A DNA stretch of 64,000 nucleotides from Microlunatus antarcticus (GTDB taxonomy: Bacteria; Actinomycetota; Actinomycetes; Propionibacteriales; Propionibacteriaceae), in the NCBI RefSeq assembly GCF_014193425.1, contig NZ_JACHZG010000001.1, positions 1,922,001 to 1,986,000 of the forward strand. Reading direction: 5' to 3'. Numbering within the stretch: the first letter of the stretch is position 1; each line of letters starts with the position of its first letter. The notes under the pieces are model-generated. The model worked only from the letters and a program-made list of their open reading frames with translations, ran no database searches and was not told the DNA's origin. This document shows, piece by piece, positions 2,888 through 31,338 of the stretch. Position numbers and translations under genes: made by a program.

Positions 2888-4296
2888 CGCTCCACCTCCG
2901 CCTGCTGCTGGGCCTCGCGCTGCTCGCGGTCGTGCCGGCGCTCCTGCCGCGTCTGGCGACGTTCCGCGTCGGCGGCCTCCTCGGCCAGCTCCTCGGGGTC
3001 GGGCTCCGCCGGGGTGAAGCGGACCCGGTCGACCCGGCTCCCGTCGATCCGCTCGACGCGCAGCGTGCCCGCGTCGATGCCGACCTCGTCGCCCACGTCG
3101 GGCAGTCGGTCGAGCCGGTCGGTGACGAAGCCGCCCACGGTCTCGTACTCCTCGTCCTCGGGGACGGCGACGCCGGTCCGGTCGTGGAGCTCGTCGGGTC
3201 GCAGCGCCGCGTCGAAGGTGAAGGAGTCGCCCTGGCGGACCAGGTCGACCCGGGCCCGGTCGTGCTCGTCGGTGAGCTCGCCGACGAGCTCCTCGACCAG
3301 GTCCTCGAGCGTGACGAGGCCCGCGGTGCCGCCGTACTCGTCGGAGACGACGGCCAGCTGGAAGCTCTGGTGGCGCAGCAGCCCGAGCAGCGTCTCGGTG
3401 GTCATCGACTCCGGCACCCGGGGCGGTTCGACGGCCAGCGAGGAGGCCAGCACGCGGCGCCGGTCCTCCTGGCTGAGCGCGAAGGCCTGCTTGATGTGCA
3501 CGACGCCACGGATGTCGTCCGCGTCCTCCCCGATCACCGGGAACCGGGAGCGCCCGGTCCGGCGGGACAGGTCGAGCACGTCGTCGGCCGTGTCGTCCAG
3601 GCGGAGCTTGTCCATCCGTACGCGCGGGGTCATCACGTCACCGGCGGTCCGGTCGCCGAAGCGGAGCGTCCGGCTGATCAGCGTCGCGTGGTCGGCGTCG
3701 AGGCTGCCCTCGAGGGCGGAGCGGCGGACCAGGGAGCTGAGCTCCTCGGCGCTCCGTGCACCGGACAGCTCCTCCTTCGGCTCGATGCCGAAGCTGCGCA
3801 CGATCGCGTTCGCGGTGTTGTTGAACAGGGCGATCAGCGGCCGGAAGACCATGGTGAAGACCGTCTGGAACGGCAGCACCAGCCGGGCGGTGGGCAGGGG
3901 GAGCGCGAGGGCGAAGTTCTTGGGCACGAGCTCGCCGACCACCATCGAGAACAGGGTCGCCAGCGCGACGCCGACGACGGTCCCGACGGCGGGCACGACG
4001 CCCGGCGGCAGTCCCACGGCCTCGAGCGGGCCGGCGAGCAGGGCGCTGACGGCCGGCTCGAAGGTGAAGCCCGTCAGCAGGGTGGTGAGGGTGATGCCCA
4101 GCTGCGCGCCCGACAGGTGGGTCGAGGTGATCCGCAGGGCGTCGATCGTCGTGTCGAGGCGCTTCTCGCCGTCGTCTCGACGGTTCTCCAGCTCGTGCCG
4201 GTCCAGGTTGACCAGGGCGAACTCGGAGGCGACGAAGAGCCCCGTGCCCACGGTCAAGATCAGGCCGACGCCGACCATCAGCCATTCGAACCACAC
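2884..4296 (-). CDS. CNNM/CorC-type (DUF21-CBS-CorC_HlyC) membrane protein
   Basis: A 470-residue full-length family member. The DUF21 membrane domain comes first (ASEFALVNLDRHELE near residues 25-40), then a CBS pair (about 220-340, including GGTAGLVTLEDLVEELVGE), then a CorC_HlyC domain (about 355-440, including TVGGFVTDRLDRLPDVGDEV). An acidic/arginine-rich tail ends the protein. CNNM proteins move or sense divalent cations, mainly Mg2+. The GTG start gives a first helix right away. It is the upstream member of a coupled two-gene operon. The metal specificity is not readable from sequence. Confidence 0.92.
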   Translation of the reverse strand: MWFEWLMVGVGLILTVGTGLFVASEFALVNLDRHELENRRDDGEKRLDTTIDALRITSTHLSGAQLGITLTTLLTGFTFEPAVSALLAGPLEAVGLPPGVVPAVGTVVGVALATLFSMVVGELVPKNFALALPLPTARLVLPFQTVFTMVFRPLIALFNNTANAIVRSFGIEPKEELSGARSAEELSSLVRRSALEGSLDADHATLISRTLRFGDRTAGDVMTPRVRMDKLRLDDTADDVLDLSRRTGRSRFPVIGEDADDIRGVVHIKQAFALSQEDRRRVLASSLAVEPPRVPESMTTETLLGLLRHQSFQLAVVSDEYGGTAGLVTLEDLVEELVGELTDEHDRARVDLVRQGDSFTFDAALRPDELHDRTGVAVPEDEEYETVGGFVTDRLDRLPDVGDEVGIDAGTLRVERIDGSRVDRVRFTPAEPDPEELAEEAADAERRQTRQERRHDREQREAQQQAEVER

Positions 4297-4369
4297 GGCG
4301 AAGCATCCTGACCTGACACGTCCGGCTCCCGCTCAGGCATGGGGAGTCGTCTCGGCGTGAAGCTCCAGA

Positions 4370-5377
4370 CTACCGACTCGGGTGGACCGACGGGTTGAGC
4401 CGGACGACGCCCACCCCCGAGAGCGATCCCCGGACGGCCGCGTCGGCCAGGTGCTCGAGCTGGTGGAACTCGCCGACGGGGAGCGCGGGGTCGCTGGCGA
4501 CCGTGGCCTCGACGTGCAGGCGGTGGCCCACCCAGCGGACCCGGGTGTCGTCGACGTGGGTCACGCCCGGCACCTCGGCGATCGCGTGCTCGGCCCGGTC
4601 GGTCAGCGACGGGTCGACCCCGTCGAGGAGACGCCGCCCGATGTCCCGGGCGGTGCCGACGAGCAGCACGAAGATCGCGAGGCTGATCAGCAGGCCGACG
4701 ACCGGGTCGGCCAGCGGGAAGCCGAGCCAGACCCCGACGACGCCCACCACGACGGCCAGCGACGTGAACCCGTCGGTGCGGGCGTGGATCCCGTCGGCGA
4801 CGAGGGCCGCCGAGCCGATCTGGCGGCCGACCCGGATGCGGTAGACCGCGACGAGCTCGTTCCCGGCGAAGCCGACGAGCCCGGCAACCAGGACCCAGAC
4901 CAGGTGATCCATCGGCTGAGGGTCGACGAACCGACGCACGGCCTCGACGGCGGCGACCACCGCGGAGAGCGCGATCATGGCCACGACGAACAGCCCCGCC
5001 AGGTCCTCGACGCGGCCGTAGCCGTACGTGTAGCGACGGGTGGCCGCGCGCCGGCTCAGCGCGAACGCCACCCACAGCGGCACCGCAGTCAGCGCGTCGG
5101 AGAAGTTGTGGACCGTGTCCGCCAGCAGCGCGACCGAGCCGCTGAACGCGACGACGACGATCTGCAGGACCGCGGTGACGGCGAGGACCACGAGGCTGGT
5201 CCTGAGCGCCCGGATGCCGGCCGTCGACGCCTCGAGCGCGTCGTCGATGGAGTCCGAGGCGTCGTGGCTGTGCGGCACGAAGAGGTTCTGGAGGAAGCCC
5301 CGGACCCCGGCCGGGTGGGCGTGCCCGTGCGGCTCGTGATCCGCGTGCGGGTGCGGGTGCGGGTGCGGCTCAGTCAT
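4370..5377 (-). CDS. Cation diffusion facilitator (CDF) family metal exporter
   Basis: A 335-residue CDF transporter that expels divalent metal by proton exchange. A His-rich head (HPHPHPHADHEPHGHAH) and a later HSHD can bind metal. Six membrane helices follow. The metal-site motifs HNFSD in helix II and HARTD in helix V give a His-Asp/His-Asp site, typical of zinc transporters, though Co2+ or Ni2+ is possible. The C-terminal cytoplasmic domain has the usual ferredoxin-like pattern (VPGVTHVDDTRVRWVGHRLH). The start codon lies inside the end of the metalloregulator gene (8-nt overlap), which argues for co-regulation by it. The open frame extends far upstream in the wrong frame of the regulator; the ATG at 5377 is the real start. 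Confidence 0.93.
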   Translation of the reverse strand: MTEPHPHPHPHADHEPHGHAHPAGVRGFLQNLFVPHSHDASDSIDDALEASTAGIRALRTSLVVLAVTAVLQIVVVAFSGSVALLADTVHNFSDALTAVPLWVAFALSRRAATRRYTYGYGRVEDLAGLFVVAMIALSAVVAAVEAVRRFVDPQPMDHLVWVLVAGLVGFAGNELVAVYRIRVGRQIGSAALVADGIHARTDGFTSLAVVVGVVGVWLGFPLADPVVGLLISLAIFVLLVGTARDIGRRLLDGVDPSLTDRAEHAIAEVPGVTHVDDTRVRWVGHRLHVEATVASDPALPVGEFHQLEHLADAAVRGSLSGVGVVRLNPSVHPSR

Positions 5378-5738
5378 CGGTCCTCTCGTCCTGGTGGTGG
5401 TGCCGGGGCTGGTCGACCACGCTGTGCTCGGCCTGGAAGAGGGCGTCGGTGACGAGCTGTGCGACGTGCTCGTTGGCGAGGCGGTAGAAGATCCGGTTGC
5501 CGTCGCGGCGCGTGGTGACCAGGCGGCTGAGCCGCATCTTGGCCAGGTGCTGGGAGACCGCGGCGTTGCTCTTGTCGACCACGTCGGCCAGCGTGTTGAC
5601 CGAGAGCTCGCCGCCCCGTAGAGCCAGCACGATCCGGACGCGGGTGGGGTCGGCCAGCATCGAGAACACCTCGACCGCCAGCTCGACGAGCTCGTCGTCG
5701 AGCGGTTCCGCGACTGCCATCCTGCTATCTGCCTGCAT
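5370..5738 (-). CDS. kmtR: ArsR/SmtB family metal-sensing repressor, KmtR-like
   Basis: A 122-residue winged-helix repressor. The segment VEVFSMLADPTRVRIVLAL and the recognition helix NAAVSQHLAKMRL are typical of ArsR proteins. The C-terminal part (NEHVAQLVTDALFQAEH, then HHH) resembles Mycobacterium tuberculosis KmtR, a Ni/Co sensor that controls a CDF exporter; this comparison is from memory. The N-terminus MQADS also matches KmtR's MYADS, which favours the ATG at 5738 over the internal ATG at 5720. No good ribosome site precedes it, so translation may be leaderless. A perfect inverted repeat spans the start codon. The gene overlaps the CDF exporter gene, its expected target. Confidence 0.85.
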   Translation of the reverse strand: MQADSRMAVAEPLDDELVELAVEVFSMLADPTRVRIVLALRGGELSVNTLADVVDKSNAAVSQHLAKMRLSRLVTTRRDGNRIFYRLANEHVAQLVTDALFQAEHSVVDQPRHHHQDERTDD

Positions 5739-5746
5739 ACGCAGAT
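5727..5746. promoter_or_regulatory. Inverted repeat over the start of the KmtR-like gene (candidate operator)
   Basis: ATCTGC and GCAGAT form perfect 6-bp arms around an 8-bp spacer. The spacer contains the ATG start codon of the metalloregulator. Autorepression by the KmtR-like protein here would silence both the regulator and the coupled exporter. Confidence 0.5.
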
Positions 5747-5813
5747 TCTTGCACGCATCGTCTCGAGGTCTGGCCCGGCCGTTCACCGCGCGGACCCGGG
5801 ACGTTCATCCGCG

Positions 5814-6068
5814 GTGCCTACGGTCACGACCGTGCTGCAGATCTTCCGCCTGCCCGACCACGCCGCCGCCTGCGCCGCCGCGCGCAGCCTCCAGCGGGAG
5901 GGTCTGACCACGCGGGCGGGGGTGCGCCACCACCTCGCCTACCTCACCGTCCGCTCCGAGCGTGCCGACGTCGGCGACCTGGTGCGCGGGCTCGCGCCGT
6001 CCGCCGTCCGGGTGAACGTCGAGCACCTGCCGACGCCGCTGGCGCACGACGTCGCCCTGGTGTCCTGA
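5814..6068 (+). CDS. Small hypothetical protein
   Basis: An 84-residue reading frame, GTG start (alternative GTG at 5832), rich in Ala, Arg, Val and His. I recognise no family. It looks like a small alpha/beta domain (VLQIFRLPDHAAACAAARSL, then AYLTVRSERADVGDLVRGL). It sits between the divergent metalloregulator and the end of an SDR gene and fills an otherwise empty 350-nt gap. Its codons show the high third-position GC expected of real genes here. No clear ribosome site. Confidence 0.5.
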   Translation: MPTVTTVLQIFRLPDHAAACAAARSLQREGLTTRAGVRHHLAYLTVRSERADVGDLVRGLAPSAVRVNVEHLPTPLAHDVALVS

Positions 6069-6092
6069 CCGGAGCTCACCCCGGGAACCGGC

Positions 6093-6860
6093 TCACCAGC
6101 AGGTGAAGCCGCCGTCGACGAGCAGGTCGACGCCGGTGCAGAAGGTCGCCGCGTCGCTGAGCAGGAAGACGGCCGGGCCGACGAGCTCGTCGACGCTCGC
6201 CATCCGCCCGAGCGGGGTGTCGGCCTCGAACTGCACGACCTGCTCGGCGACCTCGGGCCGGGTGTTCATCGGGGTGGCGGTGTAGCCGGGGCTGATCGCG
6301 TTCACACGGATGCCCCGCGCGGCCCACTCCATCGCCAGGCTGCGGGTCAGGTGCACGACCCCGGCCTTCGCCGAGTTGTAGTGGGCCTGCAGCAGGCCGC
6401 GGTTGACGATCGAGCCCGACATCGAGGCGATGTTGACGATGGCGCCGCGACCCCGGGGCAGCATCACGCGGGCCTCGGCCTGGCAGGACAGGAACACCCC
6501 GGTGTAGTCGACGTCGACCACCCGCTGCCACTGCCGCAGCGACATCTCCTCCGCCGGTGCGGCATCGGCGATGCCGGCGCTGTTCACGGCGAGCACCAGC
6601 GGCCCGAGGTCGGACTCCGTACGCGCGACCGCGTCGGCCAGGCTCGCGGGGTCGGTCACGTCCCCGGGCACCGCGACCGCCCGACGGCCGGTCTCCTCGA
6701 TCTCGGCGACGACCGCCGCCAGCGCGGGTCCGGCGAGGTCGAAGCAGGCGACGTCGGCGCCGCTCGCGGCGAGCCCGAGGGCGATGCCACGGCCGATGCC
6801 GCTCGCGGCGCCGGTGACCAGGGCCACCCGGTCGTCGAGCCGGAAGTCCGGGAGGGTCAT
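6093..6860 (-). CDS. SDR family NAD(P)-dependent oxidoreductase
   Basis: A 255-residue classical short-chain dehydrogenase. It has the cofactor motif TGAASGIG near the N-terminus, VNSAG (a variant of NNAG), the catalytic Ser in IASMSGS, and the Tyr-Lys pair in HYNSAK. The family end motif GVDLLVDGG is present. A good ribosome site (GAAAGG) precedes the ATG. It is the last gene of an operon with a second SDR and an FGGY kinase, suggesting stepwise oxidation of a polyol or sugar before or after phosphorylation. The exact substrate is unknown. Confidence 0.9.
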   Translation of the reverse strand: MTLPDFRLDDRVALVTGAASGIGRGIALGLAASGADVACFDLAGPALAAVVAEIEETGRRAVAVPGDVTDPASLADAVARTESDLGPLVLAVNSAGIADAAPAEEMSLRQWQRVVDVDYTGVFLSCQAEARVMLPRGRGAIVNIASMSGSIVNRGLLQAHYNSAKAGVVHLTRSLAMEWAARGIRVNAISPGYTATPMNTRPEVAEQVVQFEADTPLGRMASVDELVGPAVFLLSDAATFCTGVDLLVDGGFTCW

Positions 6861-16825: not shown

Positions 16826-17896
16826 ATGAGCACCCCGCTGCACGACCCGACCTGGCGCGGCTTCGCCAGCGACAACTACGCCGGCGTCCACCCCGAGGTC
16901 CTCGAGGCGCTCGCCGCCGCCAACGGCGGCCACCAGGTCGCGTACGGCGAGGACGCCTACACCGCGCGGCTGCAGGACGTGATGCGCGAGCAGCTCGGCG
17001 CCGAGGTCGAGACGTTCCCGGTCTTCAACGGGACGGGCGCCAACGTCATCGGCCTGACCAGCGTGCTGCCGCGCTGGGGCGCGGTCGTCTGCACCGACAC
17101 CGCCCACATCCACACCGACGAGGCCGGCGCCCCGGAGCGCGTGACCGGGCTCAAGCTGCTCCCCGTCGCCACGCCGGACGGCAAGCTGACCCCCGAGCTG
17201 GTCGAGCGCGAGGCCTGGGGCTGGGGCGACGAGCACCGGGCGCAGCCCCTGGCGGTCAGCCTCACCCAGAGCACCGAGGTCGGCACCGTCTACACCCCCG
17301 ACGAGATCCGCGCCGTCGCCGAGCACGCGCACGCCCACGGGATGGCCGTGCACCTCGACGGCGCACGGATCTGGAACGCGGCCGCCGCGCTCGACCTGCC
17401 GTTCGCCGCCTTCACCAGCGACGTCGGGGTGGACGTGCTCACCTTCGGCGGCACCAAGAACGGGCTGCTCGGCACCGAGGCCGTCGTGGTCCTCGACCCG
17501 GCGCGGGCGACCGGGCTCGTCTACCTCCGCAAGCTGACGATGCAGCTCACGAGCAAGATGCGGTTCGCGTCGGCCCAGCTCCTCGCGCTCTTCGACGACG
17601 ACCTCGGGCTGCGCAGCGCGCGGCACGCGAACGCGATGGCGGCCCGGTTGCGTACGGCGCTCGAGGCCGGCGTCGCCGGCGGCACGCTGCCCGGCCTGAC
17701 CTTCACCCGGCCGACCCAGGCGAACGCGGTCTTCGCCAGCCTCGCGGCGACCGTCGCGGACCGGATCCGGGAACGGGTCCGCTTCTACGACTGGGACCGG
17801 ACGCGTTCGGAGGTGCGCTGGATGGCGGCGTGGGACACGACCGAGGCCGACGTCGACCACTTCGTCGCCGTCATCGGCGAGGAGCTGACGCGCTAG
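16826..17896 (+). CDS. Threonine aldolase family PLP-dependent enzyme
   Basis: A 356-residue fold-type I enzyme. The N-terminal FASDNYAGVHPEV is typical of low-specificity L-threonine aldolases, which cleave threonine or allo-threonine to glycine and acetaldehyde. The PLP-binding Lys211 lies in TFGGTKNG, with the PLP-pyridine Asp in HLDGARIWNAA. It is divergent from the PKS operon across an 85-nt gap. Its 3' end overlaps the 3' end of the convergent NhaA gene by 26 nt. Confidence 0.93.
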   Translation: MSTPLHDPTWRGFASDNYAGVHPEVLEALAAANGGHQVAYGEDAYTARLQDVMREQLGAEVETFPVFNGTGANVIGLTSVLPRWGAVVCTDTAHIHTDEAGAPERVTGLKLLPVATPDGKLTPELVEREAWGWGDEHRAQPLAVSLTQSTEVGTVYTPDEIRAVAEHAHAHGMAVHLDGARIWNAAAALDLPFAAFTSDVGVDVLTFGGTKNGLLGTEAVVVLDPARATGLVYLRKLTMQLTSKMRFASAQLLALFDDDLGLRSARHANAMAARLRTALEAGVAGGTLPGLTFTRPTQANAVFASLAATVADRIRERVRFYDWDRTRSEVRWMAAWDTTEADVDHFVAVIGEELTR

Positions 17897-19850
17897 GAGC
17901 GTCCGCCATCCCGGCGCGTTCCCTGGCCGACGCGACGGCCTGCTGGAGCGAGGCGGCGTCGTACGCGCCGTAGTGGCGGCGGCCGTTCACGAAGAAGGTC
18001 GGGGTGCCCGAGACGCCGCTGCGGTCCGCCGAGTCGATGTCGCTCGCGATCCGGTCGGCGTGCACGTGGCGGTCGAGGTCCTCGGCGAAGCGGTCGACGT
18101 CGAGCCCGAGCCCGCCGGCGTAGCCGAGCAGGTCCGACCGCTTCAGGTGGTCCTGGTGGGTCAGCAGCAGGTCGTGCAGCGGCCAGAACGCACCCTGCTT
18201 GCCGGCCGCCTCCGACGCCTCCGCCGCCAGCTGGGCGTGCGGGTGGACGTCGGTCAGCGGCAGGTGCCGCCAGACGAAGAGCAGGTCGTCGTCGGAGTCG
18301 AGCTCGGCCCGGGCGGCCGGTTCCGCGAGACCGCAGTGGGGGCACTCGAAGTCGCCGTACTCGTAGAGGACCACGCTCGCGTCGCGCCGGCCGCGGTAGT
18401 GGTCGCGGGTGTCGTCGAAGGGCTCGGCGAGGTCCAGCAGGGCCGTCGCGCTGCCGAGCATCGCCCGCGCGCGACGGTCCGGGTCCAGGAGCTTCGAGGT
18501 CTGGAACACGACGGTGGTCACCCCCAGCGCCAGCACGCTGGTGGCGAGGATGCCGAGCTTGGCCTCGGCCAGCTCCGGGCCGTCGAAGGCCAGGGTCGCG
18601 ATGAGCAGCGAGACGGTGAAGGCGACGCCCGCGATCGTGCCGCTCCCGGCGACAGCGAGCCAGCCGACCGGCGGCTTGATGCGGCCGTGGCTGAGGCGGG
18701 TGACCGCCCAGCTCGCCAGCAGCACGCCCGCGGGCTTGCCCACGACGTAGCCGAGGACGATGCCCAGCGTGATCGGGGAGGCCCAGGCGCGGGCGAGCAG
18801 GTCCTCGTCGAGCACGAAGCCGGCGTTGGCCAGCCCGAAGAGCGGGACGATCACGTACGTGGTCGAGGGCACGTAGAAGCGCTGCAGCCGGGCGTTGGGC
18901 GACAGGGTGGCGGTGACGCCGGCGCTGGCGCTGCGGGCGAGCTCGGGCGTCGGCTCCTCCCGGAACGTGCGGAACAGCGCCGTCGCGCCCTCCAGGCCCT
19001 CGCGGGTCGGGGTGTACGCCGAGGCGGTCAGCCCGATGGCCAGGCCGGCGACGACCGGGTCGACGCAGCTGCGGAGCAGGGCGAGCCACAGCACGACGCC
19101 CGCGACGGCGAAGAAGGTGGGTCCGCCGACCCGCGTCCGCGCCGCGAGGAGGATCGCGGCGAAGACGACCACGGCGACGACGAGCGCGGTGACGTCGATC
19201 GACTCGCTGTAGAAGATCGCGATGACCACGAGCGCGACGAGGTCGTCGACGACGAAGACGGTGAGCAGGAACAGCCGGACGCGTTCCGGGACGATCCGGC
19301 CCACGACGGCGACGAGGCCGAGGGAGAGCGCGGTGTCGGTCGACATGGCCGCGCCCCAGCCGTCGGCGCCCGGCCCGCCCCGGTTGACCGCCAGGTAGAT
19401 CAGCACCGGGATCGCCATCGCGAGCAGCCCGGCGACGAGGGGGAGCAGGAACCGCTTGCGGTCACGGAGCTCGCCGAGGTCCAGCTCGCGTCGGGCCTCG
19501 AGCCCGACGACGAGGAAGAACAGGGTCATCAGGGCCTTGTTCACCCACTCCTGCAGGTCCATCGCGATCTCGCGCCCGCCGAGGCGGACGGACAGCTCGG
19601 TGGTCCAGACCCCGGTGTACGAGGCGGGGCTGAGGTTGGCCCAGAGCAGCGCCACGAGGATCGCCGCGACGAGCACGCCGGCGCTGCCCGACTCGCTGAG
19701 CAGCAGGGCGCGCAGGCTGCTCTGACCCCGCCGGAGCCAGGGCGTCTGCGCCTCGTCGGGGCCGGCCGGCTCGGCGGCGCCCTCGACCAGCCCGTCGGCC
19801 GCGGTGTCGGGCTCGTCCGGGACGACGTCGACGCCTGGCGGAGGGTTCAC
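17871..19850 (-). CDS. nhaA: Na+/H+ antiporter NhaA with C-terminal DsbA-like thioredoxin domain
   Basis: A 659-residue fusion. Residues about 40-440 are NhaA: the discontinuous-helix motif STDTALSLG and the adjacent aspartates in VFVVDDLVAL that carry Na+ and H+. Residues about 455-645 are a thioredoxin-fold domain of DsbA type with the redox motif CPHC (in YGDFECPHCG) and the cis-proline loop SGTPTFFVNGRR. NhaA-thioredoxin fusions are known from actinobacteria, but the function of the redox part is not established. The start is probably GTG 19850; no strong ribosome site supports it. The gene converges on threonine aldolase. Confidence 0.92.
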   Translation of the reverse strand: MNPPPGVDVVPDEPDTAADGLVEGAAEPAGPDEAQTPWLRRGQSSLRALLLSESGSAGVLVAAILVALLWANLSPASYTGVWTTELSVRLGGREIAMDLQEWVNKALMTLFFLVVGLEARRELDLGELRDRKRFLLPLVAGLLAMAIPVLIYLAVNRGGPGADGWGAAMSTDTALSLGLVAVVGRIVPERVRLFLLTVFVVDDLVALVVIAIFYSESIDVTALVVAVVVFAAILLAARTRVGGPTFFAVAGVVLWLALLRSCVDPVVAGLAIGLTASAYTPTREGLEGATALFRTFREEPTPELARSASAGVTATLSPNARLQRFYVPSTTYVIVPLFGLANAGFVLDEDLLARAWASPITLGIVLGYVVGKPAGVLLASWAVTRLSHGRIKPPVGWLAVAGSGTIAGVAFTVSLLIATLAFDGPELAEAKLGILATSVLALGVTTVVFQTSKLLDPDRRARAMLGSATALLDLAEPFDDTRDHYRGRRDASVVLYEYGDFECPHCGLAEPAARAELDSDDDLLFVWRHLPLTDVHPHAQLAAEASEAAGKQGAFWPLHDLLLTHQDHLKRSDLLGYAGGLGLDVDRFAEDLDRHVHADRIASDIDSADRSGVSGTPTFFVNGRRHYGAYDAASLQQAVASARERAGMADAPSASAPRR

Positions 19851-19902
19851 GTCGTGAGTGTCGTCAGGTTCGGGGGCCGGTGGCAAGGGCAGGTGGTGGC
19901 GG

Positions 19903-21117
19903 TCACGCGACGACGGCCCGGGGACGCCGGACCACGAGGACCAGCACGAGCGCGGCGACGCAGATGACCCCGATGGCCGGCCAGCCGACGTCGAGGGCGA
20001 CGGCGAGCCCGCCCGAGGTCGCGATGGCCCCCAGCAGCAAGGCGGCGGCACCCTGGACGAGGTAGGCGACGACCAGCACCGAGGACAGCATCCCGGCGCG
20101 GTGGGTGGCGGGGGCGTGCGCGTTCACCAGGGTCAGGCCGCCGAGGAAGTTGAAGCTGTAGCCCGCCCCGCCGAGCACCATGCCGGCGAAGAAGAGCGGC
20201 AGCGAGTGCGCGCTCGCCGAGAGCGTGAGCAGCCCGAGGCCGAGGATCGAGGCGACGGTCCCGGAGCCGATCAGCCACCGCGCCGGCAGCCGGCGCGAGA
20301 CGACGGCCACGACGCCGATGACGATCGCGGAGACCGACAGCAGCGCGCCGGTCACCAGCACGTTGCTCGAGCCGACGAGCTGCCGGGCGATCTGCGCGCC
20401 CATGGCCAGCACGACGGAGCCCAGCGCGTACGCGGCGCTGACCGCCAGCACCGCGGTGGCGAAGGTGCCGCCGAGACCCCGCGGCACGGTCAGCCCGCGG
20501 AGCCGCCACGGGCGTGGGTCCTCGTTCGCCACGTGGCGCGGGAGGAACCAGGCCAGCACGAGGACCCCGGTGACGACGACGGCGAGGACCCAGTAGTCGA
20601 GGTGCAGCGGGTAGGGCGCGTACTGCACGAGCGCCCCGCCGACCAGCGTGGCCAGCGCGAGCCCGGTGGCGGTCGCCGCGGTGGTGATCGAGCTCGCCCG
20701 GGCCACCTGCCCGGGCGGGCTGAAGTCGACCATGGCGGCCGACGCCGGACTCAGCGACAGCCCGACCCCGAGCCCCATGAAGGCCCGGCCCACGAACACC
20801 CACACCACGTTCGGCGCGAGGGCGAAGAGCAGCACGCCGACCAGGACGGCCACCAGGCCCAGGACGATCGAGGCGCGACGGCCGATGTGGTCGGAGAGGT
20901 CCCCGAGCACGATCAGCACGACGACGAGCACGATCGGGTAGACCGCGAAGATCGCGTTCGTGGTGGTCGGGGTGAGGTGCCACTCCGCGGCGTACAAGGG
21001 GTAGCTGACGCTGGGCGCGCCGCTCGTCCACAGCGCGAGGGCGGCGACGGCCGCGGCGGTCCAGAAGCTGGCGCGCCGCCCCAGGGTCGGGCCGGGGCTG
21101 GTCTTCGTACGGGCCAC
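19903..21117 (-). CDS. MFS transporter (drug-efflux type)
   Basis: A 404-residue major facilitator with 12 predicted helices. The cytoplasmic loop 2-3 motif GDLSDHIGRRASIVLG is the standard MFS motif A, and GRAFMGLGVGLSLSPAS matches drug:H+ antiporters of the DHA1 type. It is divergent from an HxlR regulator, with a strong inverted repeat between them. Export of a toxic small molecule sensed by that regulator is the likely role. Confidence 0.9.
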   Translation of the reverse strand: MARTKTSPGPTLGRRASFWTAAAVAALALWTSGAPSVSYPLYAAEWHLTPTTTNAIFAVYPIVLVVVLIVLGDLSDHIGRRASIVLGLVAVLVGVLLFALAPNVVWVFVGRAFMGLGVGLSLSPASAAMVDFSPPGQVARASSITTAATATGLALATLVGGALVQYAPYPLHLDYWVLAVVVTGVLVLAWFLPRHVANEDPRPWRLRGLTVPRGLGGTFATAVLAVSAAYALGSVVLAMGAQIARQLVGSSNVLVTGALLSVSAIVIGVVAVVSRRLPARWLIGSGTVASILGLGLLTLSASAHSLPLFFAGMVLGGAGYSFNFLGGLTLVNAHAPATHRAGMLSSVLVVAYLVQGAAALLLGAIATSGGLAVALDVGWPAIGVICVAALVLVLVVRRPRAVVA

Positions 21118-23173: not shown

Positions 23174-24034
23174 GTGCCGGCACGGGTTGACATGCTGCGG
23201 AGAACGACGCGGCTGGGACTGCTCGCCGCGCTGAGCCTGGGGCTGCCGCTGCTCGCAGGTCCGGCGTGGGCGGGCGGCAACGGCAGGTCGGTGCAGGACC
23301 CGCCGCCGGCGTCGCCGTCAGCGTCGGGCGTCGAGCAGTCGCCGGTCGTCGGCGTACCCGTCCTCACCGCCGCGCAGCAGCGCGAGACGGCCCGCAAGGA
23401 CGCCGAGGTGGCCAGGGCCTTCGGGCAGACCGGCCCGAACGCGCGCTCCCTCGCCGCGGTTGACGACGAGCCCGACCTGCCGAGCCACAAGTCGCTCAAG
23501 TCGGTAAAGCAGAAGGCGCAGTCGCGCACCTACTGGTGCGGCCCGGCGACGCTGGCCACGCTCGTCCAGGTCGACGGCACCAAGATCTCCCAGACCACCG
23601 CGGCGAAGCGGCTGAAGACCACCCGCAACGGGACCAACTGGTACAGCGGGGCGGGGAACTACCCGATGGAGAAGGCGCTCGAGCACTACGGCGACGACGT
23701 CGAGTACGCCGCGGCCAACCTCCCGTACAGCCCGAGCAAGTCGGACAAGGAGACGTACAAGAAGCGCCTCGTGACCGACATCGCCGTGCACAAGCAGGGC
23801 ATCGCCGGCAACGCGGTCGAGGTCACCAACGGCCCGCACCTGAACGGCCACCCCAACCGGACCATCTACCACTGGGTCGCGGTCCGCGGCTACGACGACG
23901 ACGGCGAGACCACCCGCTACGCGGACCCGGTCTCCGGCTCGGGCATCTCCTGGCAGGGGCCGGTCGACCGCTACAACGAGATCGACTCCGACAAGATCGT
24001 CACGATCTTCGGGGCCCGTGGCTACATCTGGTAG
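23174..24034 (+). CDS. Secreted papain-like (C39-type) cysteine peptidase
   Basis: A 286-residue exported protein. Signal peptide: basic LRRTTR, a leucine-rich core, cleavage near PAWA-GG. A Pro/Ser-rich linker follows. The peptidase_C39-like domain has Cys122 in TYWCGPAT, His233 in IYHWVAVRGYDDD and Asp251 in RYADPVSG, a complete papain-like triad. Such proteins occur widely in actinobacteria; substrates are unknown. Its GTG start has a fair ribosome site (GAGAGGG); an ATG at 23192 is the alternative. The next gene, a lipoprotein, overlaps its end by 17 nt, suggesting that the two work together outside the cell. Confidence 0.85.
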   Translation: MPARVDMLRRTTRLGLLAALSLGLPLLAGPAWAGGNGRSVQDPPPASPSASGVEQSPVVGVPVLTAAQQRETARKDAEVARAFGQTGPNARSLAAVDDEPDLPSHKSLKSVKQKAQSRTYWCGPATLATLVQVDGTKISQTTAAKRLKTTRNGTNWYSGAGNYPMEKALEHYGDDVEYAAANLPYSPSKSDKETYKKRLVTDIAVHKQGIAGNAVEVTNGPHLNGHPNRTIYHWVAVRGYDDDGETTRYADPVSGSGISWQGPVDRYNEIDSDKIVTIFGARGYIW

Positions 24035-25254: not shown

Positions 25255-25968
25255 TCAGACCGTGCCGAGAGCCGGTGCCCGTCGGCGCCGGACGATGTGG
25301 GGGAGCCCACGGCCGACCATCGCGAAGGTCCCGCCGATCCGCCGCGGCCACGACGGGTCGGGGGCGGGGGTGTGGGAGGCCAGGTCCTCGAGGTCGACGT
25401 AATGGGTCCGGACCGGGCCGATGCCCTCGAGGTCCAGCGCGAGCGCGTGGGTGACGAGGCCGTCGGCCTCGGCGCCGCCCGCGTCCAGCAGGTCGTCGGA
25501 GACCAGCAGGTACTCCGGCACCGCGACGGGGTTCTTGAGCAGCCGGTGGACGTGGATCACGTCCACCCCGACGAGCTTCTCGCGTCGACGGATCGTCTGC
25601 GTGGCCACCTCGCCGACGTGCGCGACGAACTTGAGCTTGAGCCCGTTGGTCTGCTTGCAGCTGCCGCAGGGACACATGTTGAGCTCGATGAAGCGGCGCT
25701 CGGTGTGGAAGGCGCGGTGCATGGCGACCGTCGCGTCCGTGGCCGCGGCCAGCGCGGACGCACCGTCGAGGGAGTCCACGTCGCGGGCGAGGAACGCGGC
25801 GTCGCCCTCGATCTCGATCAGCCGGAAGCCCCGGGCCGCGTCGACGATCCGGTCGAGCATGCGGGCCGTCGCCGCCTCGGCGTGCCCGAGCACGCTGCGG
25901 TGGAAGGTCATGTACTCGGTGTAGCCGCCGATGTCGGCGATCAGCAGCAGCGCGCGCCTGGTGGGCAT
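25255..25968 (-). CDS. DUF2652 protein, class III nucleotide cyclase-like
   Basis: A 237-residue soluble protein. LLLIADIGGYTEYM (Asp12) and FRLIEIEGDAAFLA (Asp56) match the two metal-binding strands of class III adenylate/guanylate cyclases, and KFVAHVGEVA..VGVDVIHVHRLLKN has the layout of their GE..G..VNxAARL segment. The usual Asn of that helix is replaced, so cyclase activity is uncertain. A Cys cluster (CPCGSC, residues 99-104) is typical of DUF2652. It is divergent from two genes whose products carry cyclic-nucleotide-binding domains, across a 72-nt gap. ATG 25968 starts just before the domain. Confidence 0.8.
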   Translation of the reverse strand: MPTRRALLLIADIGGYTEYMTFHRSVLGHAEAATARMLDRIVDAARGFRLIEIEGDAAFLARDVDSLDGASALAAATDATVAMHRAFHTERRFIELNMCPCGSCKQTNGLKLKFVAHVGEVATQTIRRREKLVGVDVIHVHRLLKNPVAVPEYLLVSDDLLDAGGAEADGLVTHALALDLEGIGPVRTHYVDLEDLASHTPAPDPSWPRRIGGTFAMVGRGLPHIVRRRRAPALGTV

Positions 25969-26040
25969 CTTGCGGACGCTAGCAGCGCGGGTCGACCAGG
26001 GCCAGACCCCGGAGGGCCCAGCCGTTAGCGTGTGCGCAGC

Positions 26041-27198
26041 ATGACTGCCCCGGCCGCGTTCCCCGACGACCTCGCGGCCCTGCTCGGGCCCGCCGGACCA
26101 CTCGGCCGGCCGCTGCGGGTGCTCGGGCTCTTCGCGCACCCGGACGACGAGGTCTTCTGCATGGGCGGCACCATCGCCCGCGCCTCTGCGGCCGGGGCCG
26201 AGACCGCCGTCGTGTCCCTGACCCGGGGCGACGCCGGGCAGATCCGCGACTCGGCGACGGCCACCCGCCGCACGCTCGGGGCCACCCGGGTCGCCGAGCT
26301 CCACGCGTCCGCGGCGGCGCTCGCCATCGACCACGTCGAGTGCCTCGACCTCGGCGACGGCACCCTGGCCGGCCGGCCCTTCCCCGAGGTGGTCGCGCTG
26401 GTCCGCTCGATCCTGGAACGTCTCGCGCCCGACGTGGTCGTCACGTTCGGCGAGGACGGGGGCTTCGGCCACCCCGACCACATGACGTCCTCGCGCGCCG
26501 TGCTCGCCGCCCGGGCGCAGCTGACGCGCCCGCCCCGGGTGCTCCACGCCCGGTTCCCGGCCCAGGACCGCCTCCTGCTCGACCTGCTCGTCGACTGGCT
26601 GACCTCGGGCGAGGAACGGTTCGCCGGCACCGCGGGCTTCGGGAACGCCCTGCGCCTGTTCGCCGACGGCTCGTCGGTCCTCGGCTTCGCCGCCGACCAC
26701 CTGCAGGTCCAGTGGTTCCCGGCCGGGTCGTACGTGATCGAGCAGGGCGAGCCGTCGAACGAGCTGTTCTGCCTCCTGTCCGGCACCGTCGACATCGTGG
26801 TGGAGGACGCCGCGGGGACGCTCGTCACCAAGGACAGCAGCGGGCCGGGCTCGTTCGTGGGTCAGGACGGTCTGGCGAGCGGCCGCCCGCGCAACGCCCA
26901 CGTGATCGCCCGCGACGACGTGACGTGCTTCGTCCTCGCGCCCCGCGGCCGTGACCTGTCGGCCGGGCGGGGCATCGGGGCGACCGCGACCGTGACCGCA
27001 CCGGAGGCGGGAGGGCGGACGCCCGTCGTGCCCCCCGCGCCGGCGGGCGACGTCACGCTGGACGTCGGCGCCGCCCTCGACCAGAAGATCGCCGCCCTGG
27101 TCGCGCACCGCTCGCAGTACGCGCTGGACCCCGAGCTGCTGCCCCGCCGGGTGCTCGGGCCGCTGCTGGGCACCGAGCACTTCACCGTGGTCGGCTAG
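26041..27198 (+). CDS. PIG-L family deacetylase with an inserted cyclic-nucleotide-binding domain
   Basis: A 385-residue protein. The PIG-L/LmbE metal site is complete: AHPDDE (His33, Asp36) and GHPDH (His144, His147). This family removes acetyl groups from N-acetylglucosaminyl compounds, for example in mycothiol synthesis. The closing PIG-L segment, DVGAALDQKIAALVAHRSQY, is at residues 341-360, but between about 205 and 305 sits a cyclic-nucleotide-binding-like barrel (EQGEPSNELFCLLSGTVDIVVE, then GQDGLASGRPRNAHV). The phosphate-binding cassette has Gln instead of the usual Glu, so ligand binding is uncertain. The insertion could switch the deacetylase. ATG 26041 preferred. Ten nt separate it from the MFS gene. 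Confidence 0.87.
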   Translation: MTAPAAFPDDLAALLGPAGPLGRPLRVLGLFAHPDDEVFCMGGTIARASAAGAETAVVSLTRGDAGQIRDSATATRRTLGATRVAELHASAAALAIDHVECLDLGDGTLAGRPFPEVVALVRSILERLAPDVVVTFGEDGGFGHPDHMTSSRAVLAARAQLTRPPRVLHARFPAQDRLLLDLLVDWLTSGEERFAGTAGFGNALRLFADGSSVLGFAADHLQVQWFPAGSYVIEQGEPSNELFCLLSGTVDIVVEDAAGTLVTKDSSGPGSFVGQDGLASGRPRNAHVIARDDVTCFVLAPRGRDLSAGRGIGATATVTAPEAGGRTPVVPPAPAGDVTLDVGAALDQKIAALVAHRSQYALDPELLPRRVLGPLLGTEHFTVVG

Positions 27199-27207
27199 GG
27201 CGGCGAC

Positions 27208-28890
27208 GTGGGCGCGGCCGGGGTCCTGCGCGAACGGCTCCGCGGCACGCGGCAGGCGCTGCGGCACCGTGACCTGGCCCGGCTCCTGCTCGTCTGGGGC
27301 GTCTGGATCACGGCCGACTGGGCGCTGCTGATCACCGTCTCGCTGCTGGCGCTCGACGCCTCCGGGCCGGCGGCCGTCGGGCTCGTCGGGGCCGTACGCG
27401 TCCTCCCGGCGGCGCTGCTCAGCGCACCCGCGTCGGTGCTGACCGACCGCTGGTCCCGCAGCCGGCTGCTTGCCGCGGTCTACGCCGGCTCGTCCGTCCT
27501 GGCCGGCCTCCTCGTGTGGTGCGCGGTGACGGACGCCGGGCTCCCGGCCCTGCTCGTGGTCGTCGCGGCCGGCTCGGCGCTGTCGGCGGCCGTCCGGCCC
27601 ACGTTGCAGGCGATGGTGCCGACCCTGGTCACCTCACCCACCGACCTGATCGCCGCGAACGCCGGCTTCGCGACGCTCGAGGCGCTGGGCACGGTCGTCG
27701 GGCCGGGGCTCTGCGCGGCCCTGCTCGGGGTGCTGGGCCCCCCGGGCGTGCTCGGCGTGCTGGTGGTGCTCCTCGGCGTGGCCGCGGTCGTCGCCGCGAC
27801 GATCCGGACCCCGTTCGTGCCGGCCCGGCGCGTGCCCGGCTCGACCCGGGACGCGTGGCTGGCACCCCTGCTCGGTTTCCGGGTGCTCGCACGGCCCGGG
27901 CTGCGGCCGGCCGTCTCGCTCTTCCTCGGCCAGACCGTGATGCGCGGGCTCCTGAACGTCTTCGTGGTCCTCGTCGCCACCTCCGTGGTCGGCGGCTCGG
28001 AGTCGCTGGCCGGCCGCCTCTTCATCGCGATGGGCCTGGGCGGGCTGGTCGGCGCCGTCGTGGCGATGGGTCTGGGACCGCGGCGCGGGAGCCGCTGGAT
28101 CGCCCTCGGGATCGTGCTCTGGGGCCTGCCGGTCGTGGCGATCGGGATCTGGCCGCAGGCCGGTCCCGCCTCGGCCTCGCTCGCCCTGCTGGGCTTCGGG
28201 AACGCGCTGCTCGACGTCTCCGGCTACACGCTGGTCAACCGGCTCGTGCCCGACCACCTCGCGGGGCGGGCCTGGGGGGCGTTCAACGCGCTCGCCGCCG
28301 CGGTCGTCGCCCTCGGCTCGCTGCTCGCCCCGCCGCTCGTGGCGGCGCTCGGGCTGGGCGGGGCGATGGTGCTGACCGGCGCCGTGCTCGCGCTGGCCCC
28401 GGTGCTGACCTGGCGGCGGCTCAGCCGCCTCGACGCCCTGGCCGGGGGGCGTACGGAGGACGTCGAGCTGCTGCGCCGGGTGCCGCTCTTCGCCGCCCTG
28501 TCGCTCGTGGGCGTCGAGCGCCTGGCCCGGAGCGCCCAGGTCCGGCGGGTCGACCCCGGGACCGACGTCGTCCGCCAGGGCGAGCCGGCGGCCGAGTTCT
28601 ACGTCCTCGCGTCCGGTGCGGCGGTGGTCGTCCGCGACGGGCGGGAGGTCCGCCGGCTGGGTGCGGGCGAGGCCTTCGGCGAGATCGCCCTCCTGGAGCC
28701 GGGTCCCCGGACGGCCACCGTCACCACGCTGACGCCGGCACGGCTGCTGGTCCTCGACCGCGACGGCTTCGTCGGCGCCGTCACCGGGCACCGGCCCACC
28801 GACGACCTCGCCCGCGCCCGGCTGGCCTCGCTGCACGCCGCCGACGAGGAGCGCGGCCCGGACGCGGTCGAGGAACCTCCGCTCCCGTAG
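27208..28890 (+). CDS. MFS transporter with C-terminal cyclic-nucleotide-binding domain
   Basis: A 560-residue protein. The first 410 residues are a 12-helix major facilitator (GLVGAVRVLPAALLSAPASVLTDRWSRSRLL, MFS loop). Residues about 425-530 are a cyclic-nucleotide-binding domain with a complete phosphate-binding cassette: FGEIALLEPGPRTATV (conserved Gly-Glu and Arg). This suggests transport gated by cAMP or cGMP. Start is GTG 27208, 9 nt after the PIG-L gene. Its substrate is unknown. Architecture resembles family members in actinobacteria but is not common. Confidence 0.87.
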   Translation: MGAAGVLRERLRGTRQALRHRDLARLLLVWGVWITADWALLITVSLLALDASGPAAVGLVGAVRVLPAALLSAPASVLTDRWSRSRLLAAVYAGSSVLAGLLVWCAVTDAGLPALLVVVAAGSALSAAVRPTLQAMVPTLVTSPTDLIAANAGFATLEALGTVVGPGLCAALLGVLGPPGVLGVLVVLLGVAAVVAATIRTPFVPARRVPGSTRDAWLAPLLGFRVLARPGLRPAVSLFLGQTVMRGLLNVFVVLVATSVVGGSESLAGRLFIAMGLGGLVGAVVAMGLGPRRGSRWIALGIVLWGLPVVAIGIWPQAGPASASLALLGFGNALLDVSGYTLVNRLVPDHLAGRAWGAFNALAAAVVALGSLLAPPLVAALGLGGAMVLTGAVLALAPVLTWRRLSRLDALAGGRTEDVELLRRVPLFAALSLVGVERLARSAQVRRVDPGTDVVRQGEPAAEFYVLASGAAVVVRDGREVRRLGAGEAFGEIALLEPGPRTATVTTLTPARLLVLDRDGFVGAVTGHRPTDDLARARLASLHAADEERGPDAVEEPPLP

Positions 28891-28970: not shown

Positions 28971-29146
28971 CGCCGCCCCCGGGCAGGGGCGTTCACTGAG
29001 GTGGTCAGCGGAGGACCCGAGGCGCGCACGAGTTGGGGGACTCAGGGGGCGCCGGAGGTCACCGCTGCCGACCGAGGTGGGGAGCAGGACCGAGCCGGGT
29101 GCTGCCCTCCACCGCGGTGACGTGTCGAGGCCCCCGGGAGGCAGAC

Positions 29147-30679
29147 GTGCTGGCCGACCCGGAGGCCCCCGTGGTCGCACTGTCGCAGCGCCGTCTCGAG
29201 CTGCTGATGCAGGCCGACCGCGCCATCCTGAGCGAGCTGTCGATGACGACCGTCCTCCGTCAGATCGCCTCGTCGGCCCGTGACCTCGTCGACGCCCGCT
29301 ACGCCGCCGTGGGCGTGGTCGGGACCGACGGGGAGCCGGCGGAGCTCGTCCACGTGGGGACGCCGGACGACGCGGTCCGCAGGAACGGCGGGCTCGCCGC
29401 CGACCACGGCCTGCTCGGGGTGCCGATCACGGTCCGGGACGCGGTCCACGCCAACCTCTACCTCTCCGAGCCCGCCGGGGGTGGAGGCTTCACCGCGGAG
29501 GACCGTGCCGTGCTCGACGCCCTCGGGGTGACGGCCGGCTTCGCCATCCAGAACAGCTGGCTCTACGAGGACAGCCAGCGCCGCCAGCACTGGGCCGAGG
29601 CGGTGGCCCAGGTCAGCTCGGCCCTGCTGGACCCGTCGCCCGGCGACGACCCGGTCGCCCTCATCGCGGACACGGTCCTGGCGCTGACCCGGGCCGACGT
29701 CGTCTCGGTCGTCGTGCCCGCGTCCGAGCCGGGGACGTTCCGGGTGCAGCTCGCCCGGGGCGTACGGGCGTCCGAGATCGAGGGCATGACCTACCCGGCC
29801 CTGCGCAGCGTCGCCGCCCTCGCGCTGGCCACCGGCAAGGGCGTCCGGATGGGCTCGCAGGAGGTGGAGGAGGGTTTCGTCATCCACCTGCGCTCGATCG
29901 TGGACGTCGGCGCGGTGCTGGGACTGCCCCTCCACGGCTCCGAGGGCTCGCGCGGCGCGCTGGTCGTGGTCCGGCGGCACGGGCGCCCGGCGTTCGACCT
30001 CAGCGACCTCGTGCTGAGCGAGTCGTTCGCCGCGCAGGCGGCCCTGGCCATGGAGCTGGCCCAGGCGCGCGCCGACCAGCAGCAGCTGGTCGTGCTGCAG
30101 GACCGCGAACGCATCGCCCGCGACCTCCACGACCACGTCATCCAGCGGCTGTACGCCCTCGGGCTCACGCTCGAGGGCCTGGCCGGCTCGTCGGACCCGG
30201 TCACCGCGCCCCGGCTCGTCTCGGTCGTCGACGACCTGGACGTGACCGTGCGGCAGATCCGCAACCTGATCTTCCGGCTGCAGGCGTCGGAGACGGTCCG
30301 GACGCTCCGGTCCGCCGTCCTCGAGGTCACCGACGAGGCGACGCCCGGGCTCGGCTTCGACCCCGACGTGAGCTTCGAGGGCCCGGTCGACACGCTCGCC
30401 GACGAGGCGCTCGTCGGTGACGTCGAGGCGGTCTGCCGCGAGGCGCTCAGCAACGTGGTGCGTCACGCCCGGGCGTCGAGCGTGTCCGTCCGGGTGACCG
30501 CCTTCGGCGCCGCGCTCACCGTGGTGGTCTCCGACGACGGGATCGGGCTGGACCGGCTGTCGCGGCGCAGCGGTCTGCACAACCTCGAGCGGCGCGCGCT
30601 CCAGCGCCAGGGGAGCTGTCGCCTCAGCCGGCGGCCGGCGGGCGGGACGGTGCTGCGATGGTCGATCCCGCTGACGTGA
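29147..30679 (+). CDS. GAF-domain sensor histidine kinase (DosS/DevS-like)
   Basis: A 510-residue cytoplasmic kinase: GAF domain 1 (about 30-140), GAF domain 2 (about 150-305), HisKA_3 dimerisation region with phosphoacceptor His328 in RIARDLHDHVIQ, and ATPase motifs (SNVVRHA, SDDGIGL, HNLERRALQ). The LGVPITVRD and NLYLSEPAGGGGFTAEDRAVL stretch of GAF 1 follows DosS closely; His87 lies where DosS has the His before LGVPI, so heme-based O2, CO or NO sensing is possible but not shown. GTG 29147 is preceded by GGGAGG; the frame is open further upstream. The response regulator gene overlaps its end by 22 nt. Confidence 0.9.
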   Translation: MLADPEAPVVALSQRRLELLMQADRAILSELSMTTVLRQIASSARDLVDARYAAVGVVGTDGEPAELVHVGTPDDAVRRNGGLAADHGLLGVPITVRDAVHANLYLSEPAGGGGFTAEDRAVLDALGVTAGFAIQNSWLYEDSQRRQHWAEAVAQVSSALLDPSPGDDPVALIADTVLALTRADVVSVVVPASEPGTFRVQLARGVRASEIEGMTYPALRSVAALALATGKGVRMGSQEVEEGFVIHLRSIVDVGAVLGLPLHGSEGSRGALVVVRRHGRPAFDLSDLVLSESFAAQAALAMELAQARADQQQLVVLQDRERIARDLHDHVIQRLYALGLTLEGLAGSSDPVTAPRLVSVVDDLDVTVRQIRNLIFRLQASETVRTLRSAVLEVTDEATPGLGFDPDVSFEGPVDTLADEALVGDVEAVCREALSNVVRHARASSVSVRVTAFGAALTVVVSDDGIGLDRLSRRSGLHNLERRALQRQGSCRLSRRPAGGTVLRWSIPLT

Positions 30680-31338
30680 CCCGGCCCCCGATCCGGCTGT
30701 TCCTGCTCGACGACCACGAGATCGTCCGGCGGGGGATCACCGAGCTGCTCTCGAGGACCTCCGACATCGAGGTCGTCGGCGAGGCCTCGACGGTCGCGCA
30801 GGCGCTGACGAGGATCCCGGCCTGCCGGCCCGACGTGGCGGTGCTCGACGCCCGCCTGCCGGACGGCAGCGGCATCGACCTGTGCCGCGAGGTGCGGTCG
30901 CGCCACCCTGCGACCCGGTGCCTCGTCCTCACCTCGTACGACGACGACGAGGCGCTCTTCGCCGCGGTGCTGGCGGGGGCGTCGGGCTACCTGCTCAAGC
31001 AGATCCGCGGGTCCTCGCTGACCGACGCGATCCGGGCCGTGGCCGCCGGGCAGTCGCTGATCGACCCGCTCATGACCGGCAAGCTGCTCGAACGACTCCG
31101 GCGCCCGCCGGAGCCCGACAGCCGCATCAGCGGGCTGTCCGAGCGCGAGCTCGAGATCCTCGACCTCATCGCCGAGGGTCTCTCCAACCGGGAGATCGGG
31201 CAGCGGCTGTTCCTGGCCGAGAAGACGGTGAAGAACTACATCTCCAGCCTGCTGTCGAAGCTGAAGCTGCAGCGCCGTACCCAGGCCGCCGTCCTGCGGA
31301 CCGAGGTCCGCCACGACGAGTCGGAGGCACGCGGCTGA
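30658..31338 (+). CDS. NarL/DosR-family response regulator
   Basis: A 226-residue regulator. The receiver domain has phospho-acceptor Asp64 in VLDARLPDG, with the acidic pair DD at 18-19 and Lys in YLLKQ. The LuxR-type helix-turn-helix (LSERELEILDLIAEGLSNREIGQRL, AEKTVKNYISSLLSKL) matches DosR, including EKTVKNY. It would be phosphorylated by the kinase whose gene it overlaps and bind the GGGAC-N4-GTCCC boxes at 28951 and perhaps 31547. Likely signal: low oxygen or NO, by analogy only. Confidence 0.92.
   Translation: MVDPADVTRPPIRLFLLDDHEIVRRGITELLSRTSDIEVVGEASTVAQALTRIPACRPDVAVLDARLPDGSGIDLCREVRSRHPATRCLVLTSYDDDEALFAAVLAGASGYLLKQIRGSSLTDAIRAVAAGQSLIDPLMTGKLLERLRRPPEPDSRISGLSERELEILDLIAEGLSNREIGQRLFLAEKTVKNYISSLLSKLKLQRRTQAAVLRTEVRHDESEARG

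Follow-up and report, generated by a model that had tools for sequence, protein, structure and literature searches.

The window analysed here, a stretch of 64,000 nucleotides from the Microlunatus antarcticus genome, carries at 26041..27198 (+) a gene for a 385-residue protein of the PIG-L deacetylase type that has a cyclic nucleotide-binding (CNB) domain in its interior, hereafter PIG-L-CNB. The gene lies between those of a DUF2652 protein and an MFS transporter, and its architecture is documented by Pfam, an AlphaFold2 model, structural matches and 19 further loci. The reading frame runs from an ATG at 26041 to a stop codon at 27196-27198, with an upstream GTG at 26032 that would add three residues. 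In this 388-residue reading Pfam places PIG-L (PF02585) at residues 33-160 (E 9.4e-32; 110.7 bits against a curated cut-off of 28.2) and the CNB family PF00027 at residues 227-302 (E 1.5e-14; 54.1 bits against a curated cut-off of 27.5).

The protein opens with the N-terminal portion of the PIG-L fold, which comprises strands 1-5 (residues 20-175; 26098..26565, on the + strand like every feature of the gene), as delineated by Pfam and the model. Its metal-binding motif AHPDD (26134..26148) is present in all 19 readable CNB-type copies and invariant in a 22-row alignment, and the second metal-binding motif, HPDH (26470..26481), is likewise kept in 19 of 19. In the AlphaFold2 model (mean pLDDT 81.5, pTM 0.77) the PIG-L strands at residues 26-171 are followed by two helices (residues 179-189 and 198-214; 26575..26682), a region in which W182 and G192 (381-residue numbering) are invariant in a six-row alignment. 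The CNB beta barrel, defined by PF00027, the model and structural matches, spans residues 222-299 (26704..26937) and contains the phosphate-binding cassette GSFVGQDGLASGRPRNA (26848..26898) with Gln275, encoded at 26863-26865, at a position occupied by Glu in most relatives. A variable linker (residues 304-334; 26950..27042), disordered with pLDDT below 50 and of low identity, returns the chain to the PIG-L fold, where a strand, helices and a further strand occupy residues 337-384. This C-terminal PIG-L segment (27043..27195), with HRSQ at 27106-27117, is identified by alignment, motif spacing, the model and structural matches.

A complete CNB barrel is thus inserted after PIG-L core strand 5 and ahead of the strand and helix that close the fold before HRSQ, an architecture on which Pfam, alignment spacing, the AlphaFold2 model and structural matches all concur. 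Seven CNB-bearing rows have 207-217 residues between HPDH and the closing [HY]R[ST]Q-type motif, compared with 84-97 in 15 plain PIG-L rows, which were hand-picked from the fetched loci, and the closing segment itself aligns with the C-terminal part of plain PIG-L enzymes in the 22-row alignment. The 22 top-ranked PIG-L structures align with the model as far as residue 385. MshB-like enzymes match it on either side of the insert, the MshB alignment spanning residues 20-385, while CNB structures (CRP/CAP-type proteins, PKA, PKG and Bd1971) align within approximately residues 174-311. An earlier note made from the sequence had described a CNB-like barrel within the PIG-L fold, with the metal motifs before it and the HRSQ segment after it, and had read this as an insertion and not a tail fusion. 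Both statements are borne out, since PF02585 and PF00027 score above their cut-offs, the barrel sits in the middle of the model, and alignment, spacing and structural matches place the closing segment beyond it. The extent of about residues 205-305 given there was right as to the presence of a CNB insert, and its boundaries are here corrected to helices at 179-214 and a barrel at 222-299. A C-terminal fusion that replaces the PIG-L end is ruled out by the presence of an alignable closing segment. A chimeric reading frame or assembly error is likewise ruled out by the 19 further loci that carry the same architecture, 18 with all motifs readable and one broken.

PIG-L-CNB is a metal-dependent hydrolase of the PIG-L (MshB/LmbE-type) family, with AHPDD and HPDH motifs and a complete fold that includes the C-terminal segment. 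Members of this family make or process low-molecular-weight thiols, chitin fragments and antibiotics, as the titles of solved structures indicate. Among NCBIfam models, those for BshB, MshB and Mca match its N-terminal region with scores far under their equivalog cut-offs, none of which is reached (MshB 76.7 bits against 224.35, Mca 53.3 against 277.15, BshB2 81.6 against 195.25 and BshB1 62 against 182.5). Separate genes of the same genome do pass these cut-offs for Mca (461.2 bits) and MshB (279.8 bits), so that PIG-L-CNB is ruled out as the MshB or Mca of this genome. Given these dedicated genes, its substrate is probably not that of the ordinary mycothiol step. The more specific label of an N-acetylglucosaminyl-type deacetylase, as first proposed, is not upheld by these scores, and the structural matches show that the PIG-L fold is shared by the hydratase GalB, which is not a deacetylase.

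Full-length PIG-L-CNB occurs in 5 of 96 genomes (its own and 95 relatives) and in 4 of 20 from the genus. Wider samples give at least 6 of 391 genomes for the order, at least 2 of 394 for the class and at least 2 of 396 for the phylum. The own genome is included in each of these overlapping samples, and the last three counts are lower bounds with about four candidates per genome scored in full. The next best phylum match after the two full-length ones is a 115-residue PIG-L fragment at a contig end (L044, genome G361). In another order, 12 of 112 genomes from the family of genome G1101 match at 1e-45, one of them with a fragment. A contig-wide genome scan returned six loci, three of them full-length (a Friedmanniella metagenome-assembled genome (MAG), Microlunatus flavus and an Acidimicrobiaceae MAG), the first two being repeats of G008 and G017. 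In total 20 distinct loci in Actinomycetota were examined, window included, and 19 are readable. In the remaining one (L179, genome G1177, 4761-5470) the gene is split over two frames within a fragmented assembly, through either a broken gene or a sequencing error. A tree of 56 PIG-L rows unites the nine CNB-type rows that it includes, from the 20 loci, in a single group (93/92; 90% of 200 bootstrap trees). Several independent insertions are not supported, as all nine tested rows fall on one side of a branch, and a single origin of the insertion is possible. Between the window copy and three close relatives identity is 80-82% in the barrel, 74-79% in the PIG-L core and 41-54% in the linker, with non-linker parts at 74-85% overall, which indicates that the barrel is as constrained as the enzyme core.

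PIG-L-CNB belongs to a recurrent module, which was found by blastp of called genes and Pfam and then by a profile search of all frames in the 20 loci. On the opposite strand, at 25255..25968 (-), lies the gene for a DUF2652 protein (PF10851, E 3.7e-37) with a class III nucleotide cyclase fold, as judged from profile, model and structural matches. It is divergent from the PIG-L-CNB gene, with start codons 72 bases apart. Nine bases past the PIG-L-CNB stop codon begins the gene for an MFS transporter with a C-terminal CNB domain, MFS-CNB (27208..28890, +; MFS_1 4.1e-21, PF00027 6.5e-19), the CNB domain being encoded at approximately 28543-28773. In 15 of the 20 PIG-L-CNB loci a DUF2652 gene is found no more than about 2.1 kb away. 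An MFS gene is near in 13 of them, with the CNB domain visible in 12 and the contig of the other (L036) ending within the gene. The orientation of PIG-L-CNB and DUF2652 is divergent in four loci of the window genus, same-strand in G075 and G535, and convergent (six) or same-strand (three) in the nine loci of the G1101 family that have both. DUF2652 is found in 8 of the 96 genomes, among them all five that carry PIG-L-CNB, a coincidence with a chance probability of about 1e-6 if taken at face value, these being related and not independent genomes. Where DUF2652 occurs without PIG-L-CNB (L096-L114, several of these stretches cut by contig ends), a CNB gene is nearby in 1 of 19. In that locus (L111, genome G095, 4141-6622) an MFS-CNB gene adjoins a DUF2652 gene of the Glu type described below, with no PIG-L-CNB in the stretch, so MFS-CNB and DUF2652 can pair on their own.

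An extra small CNB reading frame accompanies PIG-L-CNB in 5 of 20 loci (L068 5459-6046, L156 8938-9528, L169 at about 7493, L173 at about 7424 and L175 at about 7427). For the only one of the five that was scanned, the 196-residue product in L068, Pfam finds no domain besides CNB. Just downstream of the module in the window are a GAF histidine kinase and a LuxR response regulator (29033-31338, +; Pfam). Their membership of the module is unsupported, no related gene having been called in seven other loci from six genomes, a comparison in which the simple gene caller missed genes such as the MFS-CNB of L067 and the DUF2652 gene of the window.

The phosphate-binding cassette of PF00027 has the consensus G-E plus R-[ST]-A. 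Gly-Glu is kept in 16 of 19 readable PIG-L-CNB copies, and the three with Gly-Gln all belong to the window genus, one of them being the window copy. The sequence PR[NT]A, and with it the cassette Arg, is found in all 19, the residue after the Arg being Asn in 18 and Thr (RTA) in one. The window copy therefore departs from the consensus twice, with GQ and RNA. From the invariant Arg and the prevalence of GE, binding of a cyclic nucleotide by the insert is likely for the family, and is less sure for the window copy with its GQ. The insert may instead have lost this function and serve as a structural or dimerisation element, or bind another ligand, as the Gln in three copies, the Asn in place of Ser or Thr in nearly all, and the lack of a helix between barrel and linker in the model would allow. 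We regard this as unlikely given that the cassette Arg and, for the most part, GE persist, that conservation of the barrel equals that of the enzyme core, and that PIG-L-CNB has as neighbours a cyclase-fold protein and another CNB protein, MFS-CNB, whose cassettes read GE and RTA in the six readable of seven examined. The use of Thr after the cassette Arg as a guide to cGMP, as in eukaryotic kinases, was dropped, as another CNB domain of the genome (L118) also has Thr.

If the CNB insert binds a cyclic nucleotide, the DUF2652 protein is a candidate source. A search of solved sequences with the DUF2652 profile gave only five weak matches, one of them a cyclase at E 0.51, and the fold assignment therefore relies on profile-profile comparison, which matches class III cyclases, and on the model, which together with its structural matches shows the cyclase homology domain fold. 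Asp12 and Asp56 are invariant in 18 aligned DUF2652 rows and align with the metal-binding Asp positions of cyclases, and Arg142 is nearly invariant at the position of the transition-state Arg. The cyclase alignment used here draws on 14 of 21 loci tried, in which the domain was located by motif, the other seven being dropped. The position that specifies the purine holds Glu, a guanylyl-type residue, in all 15 DUF2652 proteins near PIG-L-CNB (the L114 protein was too short and was excluded from the purine-position count and from the tree). A CxCxxC motif is invariant in 18 of 18 aligned rows; it is not known to be part of ordinary class III cyclases, and it is possibly a metal or redox site.

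In a second alternative, the insert would bind nucleotide made by ordinary class III cyclases, and DUF2652 would be a cyclase-fold partner with little or no catalytic activity that works through contact. The lack of a transition-state Asn in DUF2652, the two PF00211 matches elsewhere in the genome and the five loci with no DUF2652 nearby would all fit. A dead scaffold need not keep both metal-binding Asp residues in every one of 18 rows, however, and by eye L123, one of the PF00211 matches, itself seems degenerate, which leaves this alternative rather improbable. Both PF00211 matches lie within approximately 1.1 kb of a CNB match, which fits local cyclase-receptor pairs, the degenerate appearance of L123 notwithstanding.

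At G000:C1:1270374-1272237 (L123, L120) a cyclase domain in which the metal-binding Asp residues seem by eye to be missing adjoins a gene resembling an MscS-type channel with a C-terminal CNB, also by eye. At G000:C1:2924998-2926408 (L124, L117) a class III cyclase carries, as a fusion, a long region in which a P-loop-like motif is seen by eye, and is divergent from what appears by eye to be a Crp-like regulator with a CNB domain, making another cyclase-receptor pair.

Our best explanation is that the DUF2652 product is a cyclic nucleotide, perhaps cGMP, that gates both PIG-L-CNB and MFS-CNB, a reading to which as a whole we assign a probability of roughly 0.5. The DUF2652 protein would make a 3',5'-cyclic nucleotide, with cGMP favoured by the Glu at its purine-specifying position, and this nucleotide would bind the CNB domains of both the enzyme and the transporter. 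Binding may then move the helices and linker that join the insert to the PIG-L core and so open or close the active site, while the same signal would switch the MFS transporter, placing both the processing of one small molecule and its export under joint control. Allosteric control of PIG-L-CNB by its insert is plausible, the more so because genes for a cyclase-fold protein and a CNB-bearing exporter lie next to its own. A broader proposal, which we put forward only tentatively, is that this is a self-contained module of Actinomycetota in which a distinct guanylyl cyclase subgroup of DUF2652 directly gates a small-molecule deacetylase, by way of the CNB domain within its catalytic fold, and its matching exporter. 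If this is true, production and export of one metabolite would be switched together after translation, with no transcription factor involved.

Several observations weigh against this explanation. A nearly invariant Ile138 stands in DUF2652 where class III cyclases have the transition-state Asn, which makes cyclase activity uncertain, and the Gln that replaces the cassette Glu in the window copy and two close relatives could weaken or alter ligand binding. The profile search found no DUF2652 in the stretches of five of the 20 loci (L174, L175, L179, L069 and L038), and all of these but L175, which has one, also show no other CNB gene. The family is patchy, as its count in the order illustrates. 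Finally, the partner trees partly disagree: PIG-L-CNB of G1101 groups with G075 and G535 (100/98), unlike the DUF2652 of its family, which groups with the window genus (85/93). The module was therefore not simply inherited as one unit, and its partners may have been exchanged, or the trees may be unsure. As regards the missing Asn, several established cyclases also lack it (PMC4886424).

The layout of a cyclase-fold gene beside CNB-fused effectors calls to mind an anti-phage role. Pycsar is a system of a cyclase and a CNB-bearing effector, and in a Pycsar-like arrangement a class III cyclase would make a cyclic pyrimidine that activates the CNB-bearing proteins. In PADLOC both PIG-L-CNB and MFS-CNB match, through their CNB parts, the CNB portion of the models for PycTIR and other TIR effectors, the CNB of MFS-CNB also matches positions 27-147 of the 374-position PycC model (E 2.6e-8), and the patchy distribution of PIG-L-CNB would suit a defence system. 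These matches all start in or beside the CNB region, even for MFS-CNB, which is a membrane protein. For DUF2652 itself PADLOC yields no match at E up to 1, the Pfam results for the proteins contain no TIR domain, and the neighbouring genes give the impression of being ordinary. Membership of Pycsar is therefore unsupported, the sole PycC match being to the CNB of the MFS protein and none to DUF2652, and we consider a Pycsar-like function very improbable beside gating of PIG-L-CNB and MFS-CNB by a DUF2652 product.

Elsewhere in the window, a reading frame at 17871-20051 (-) resembles by eye an NhaA Na+/H+ antiporter fused to a DsbA-like thioredoxin domain, and a secreted-looking C39-like peptidase (PF13529) is encoded at 23174-24034 (+).

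Parts of this scheme have been anticipated for other DUF2652 members. A 2016 paper predicts DUF2652 members to be adenylyl or guanylyl cyclases and names CNB genes as likely partners of those in M. tuberculosis (PMC4886424), so that cyclase function and some CNB partners are already predicted there. A Modestobacter marinus protein named in the same paper may belong to the DUF2652 subgroup described here. Among open-licence PubMed Central papers, a scope that does not cover domain databases such as InterPro, we found none that joins PIG-L, LmbE or MshB with cyclic nucleotides or cNMP and none that links Geodermatophil with cyclic nucleotide-binding. Within the same collection, the one paper that came up for GlcNAc-PI de-N-acetylase with cyclic nucleotide concerns GPI synthesis and cAMP-PKA signalling in Candida. 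The remark in the earlier note that no described example was known thus holds for these papers, and direct second-messenger control of a PIG-L enzyme was likewise not found in them. In this module a predicted cyclase family is joined by two concrete candidate receptors, and its three soil-bacterial genes make it testable whether members of DUF2652 are indeed cyclases and by what their product is sensed.

Compared with known systems, PIG-L-CNB shares the PIG-L fold, the AHPDD and HPDH motifs and the closing segment with MshB, Mca, BshB, diacetylchitobiose deacetylase and LnmX, and falls below the equivalog cut-offs of the first three. The solved PIG-L relatives among the matches listed, at 220-328 residues, are too short for PIG-L and CNB together, the corresponding segment of PIG-L-CNB being approximately 120 residues longer. 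The cyclase-like proteins of PMC4886424 belong to the same Pfam family as the DUF2652 neighbour, and PIG-L is absent from the main text of that paper. The module resembles Pycsar in combining a cyclase and CNB effectors and in its profile matches at the level of the CNB domain, and differs in having no TIR domain and no DUF2652 match in PADLOC. Family 2B encapsulins likewise carry a CNB domain inside another fold, for which regulation dependent on cyclic nucleotides was proposed (PMC8346489). The host fold there is a capsid protein and not an enzyme, and the consulted parts of that paper mention no nucleotide cyclase partner. Bacterial enzymes regulated by an attached CNB domain include Bd1971, with CNB and EAL domains (6hq2, 6hq3, 6hq5 and 6hq7), and the mycobacterial Pat acetyltransferase. 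The CNB structures of Bd1971 match the PIG-L-CNB insert and the Pat model matches its CNB region. In both of these the CNB domain is N-terminal (residues 4-97 of Bd1971; model positions 15-95 of 317 in Pat), whereas in PIG-L-CNB it lies within the enzyme fold itself.
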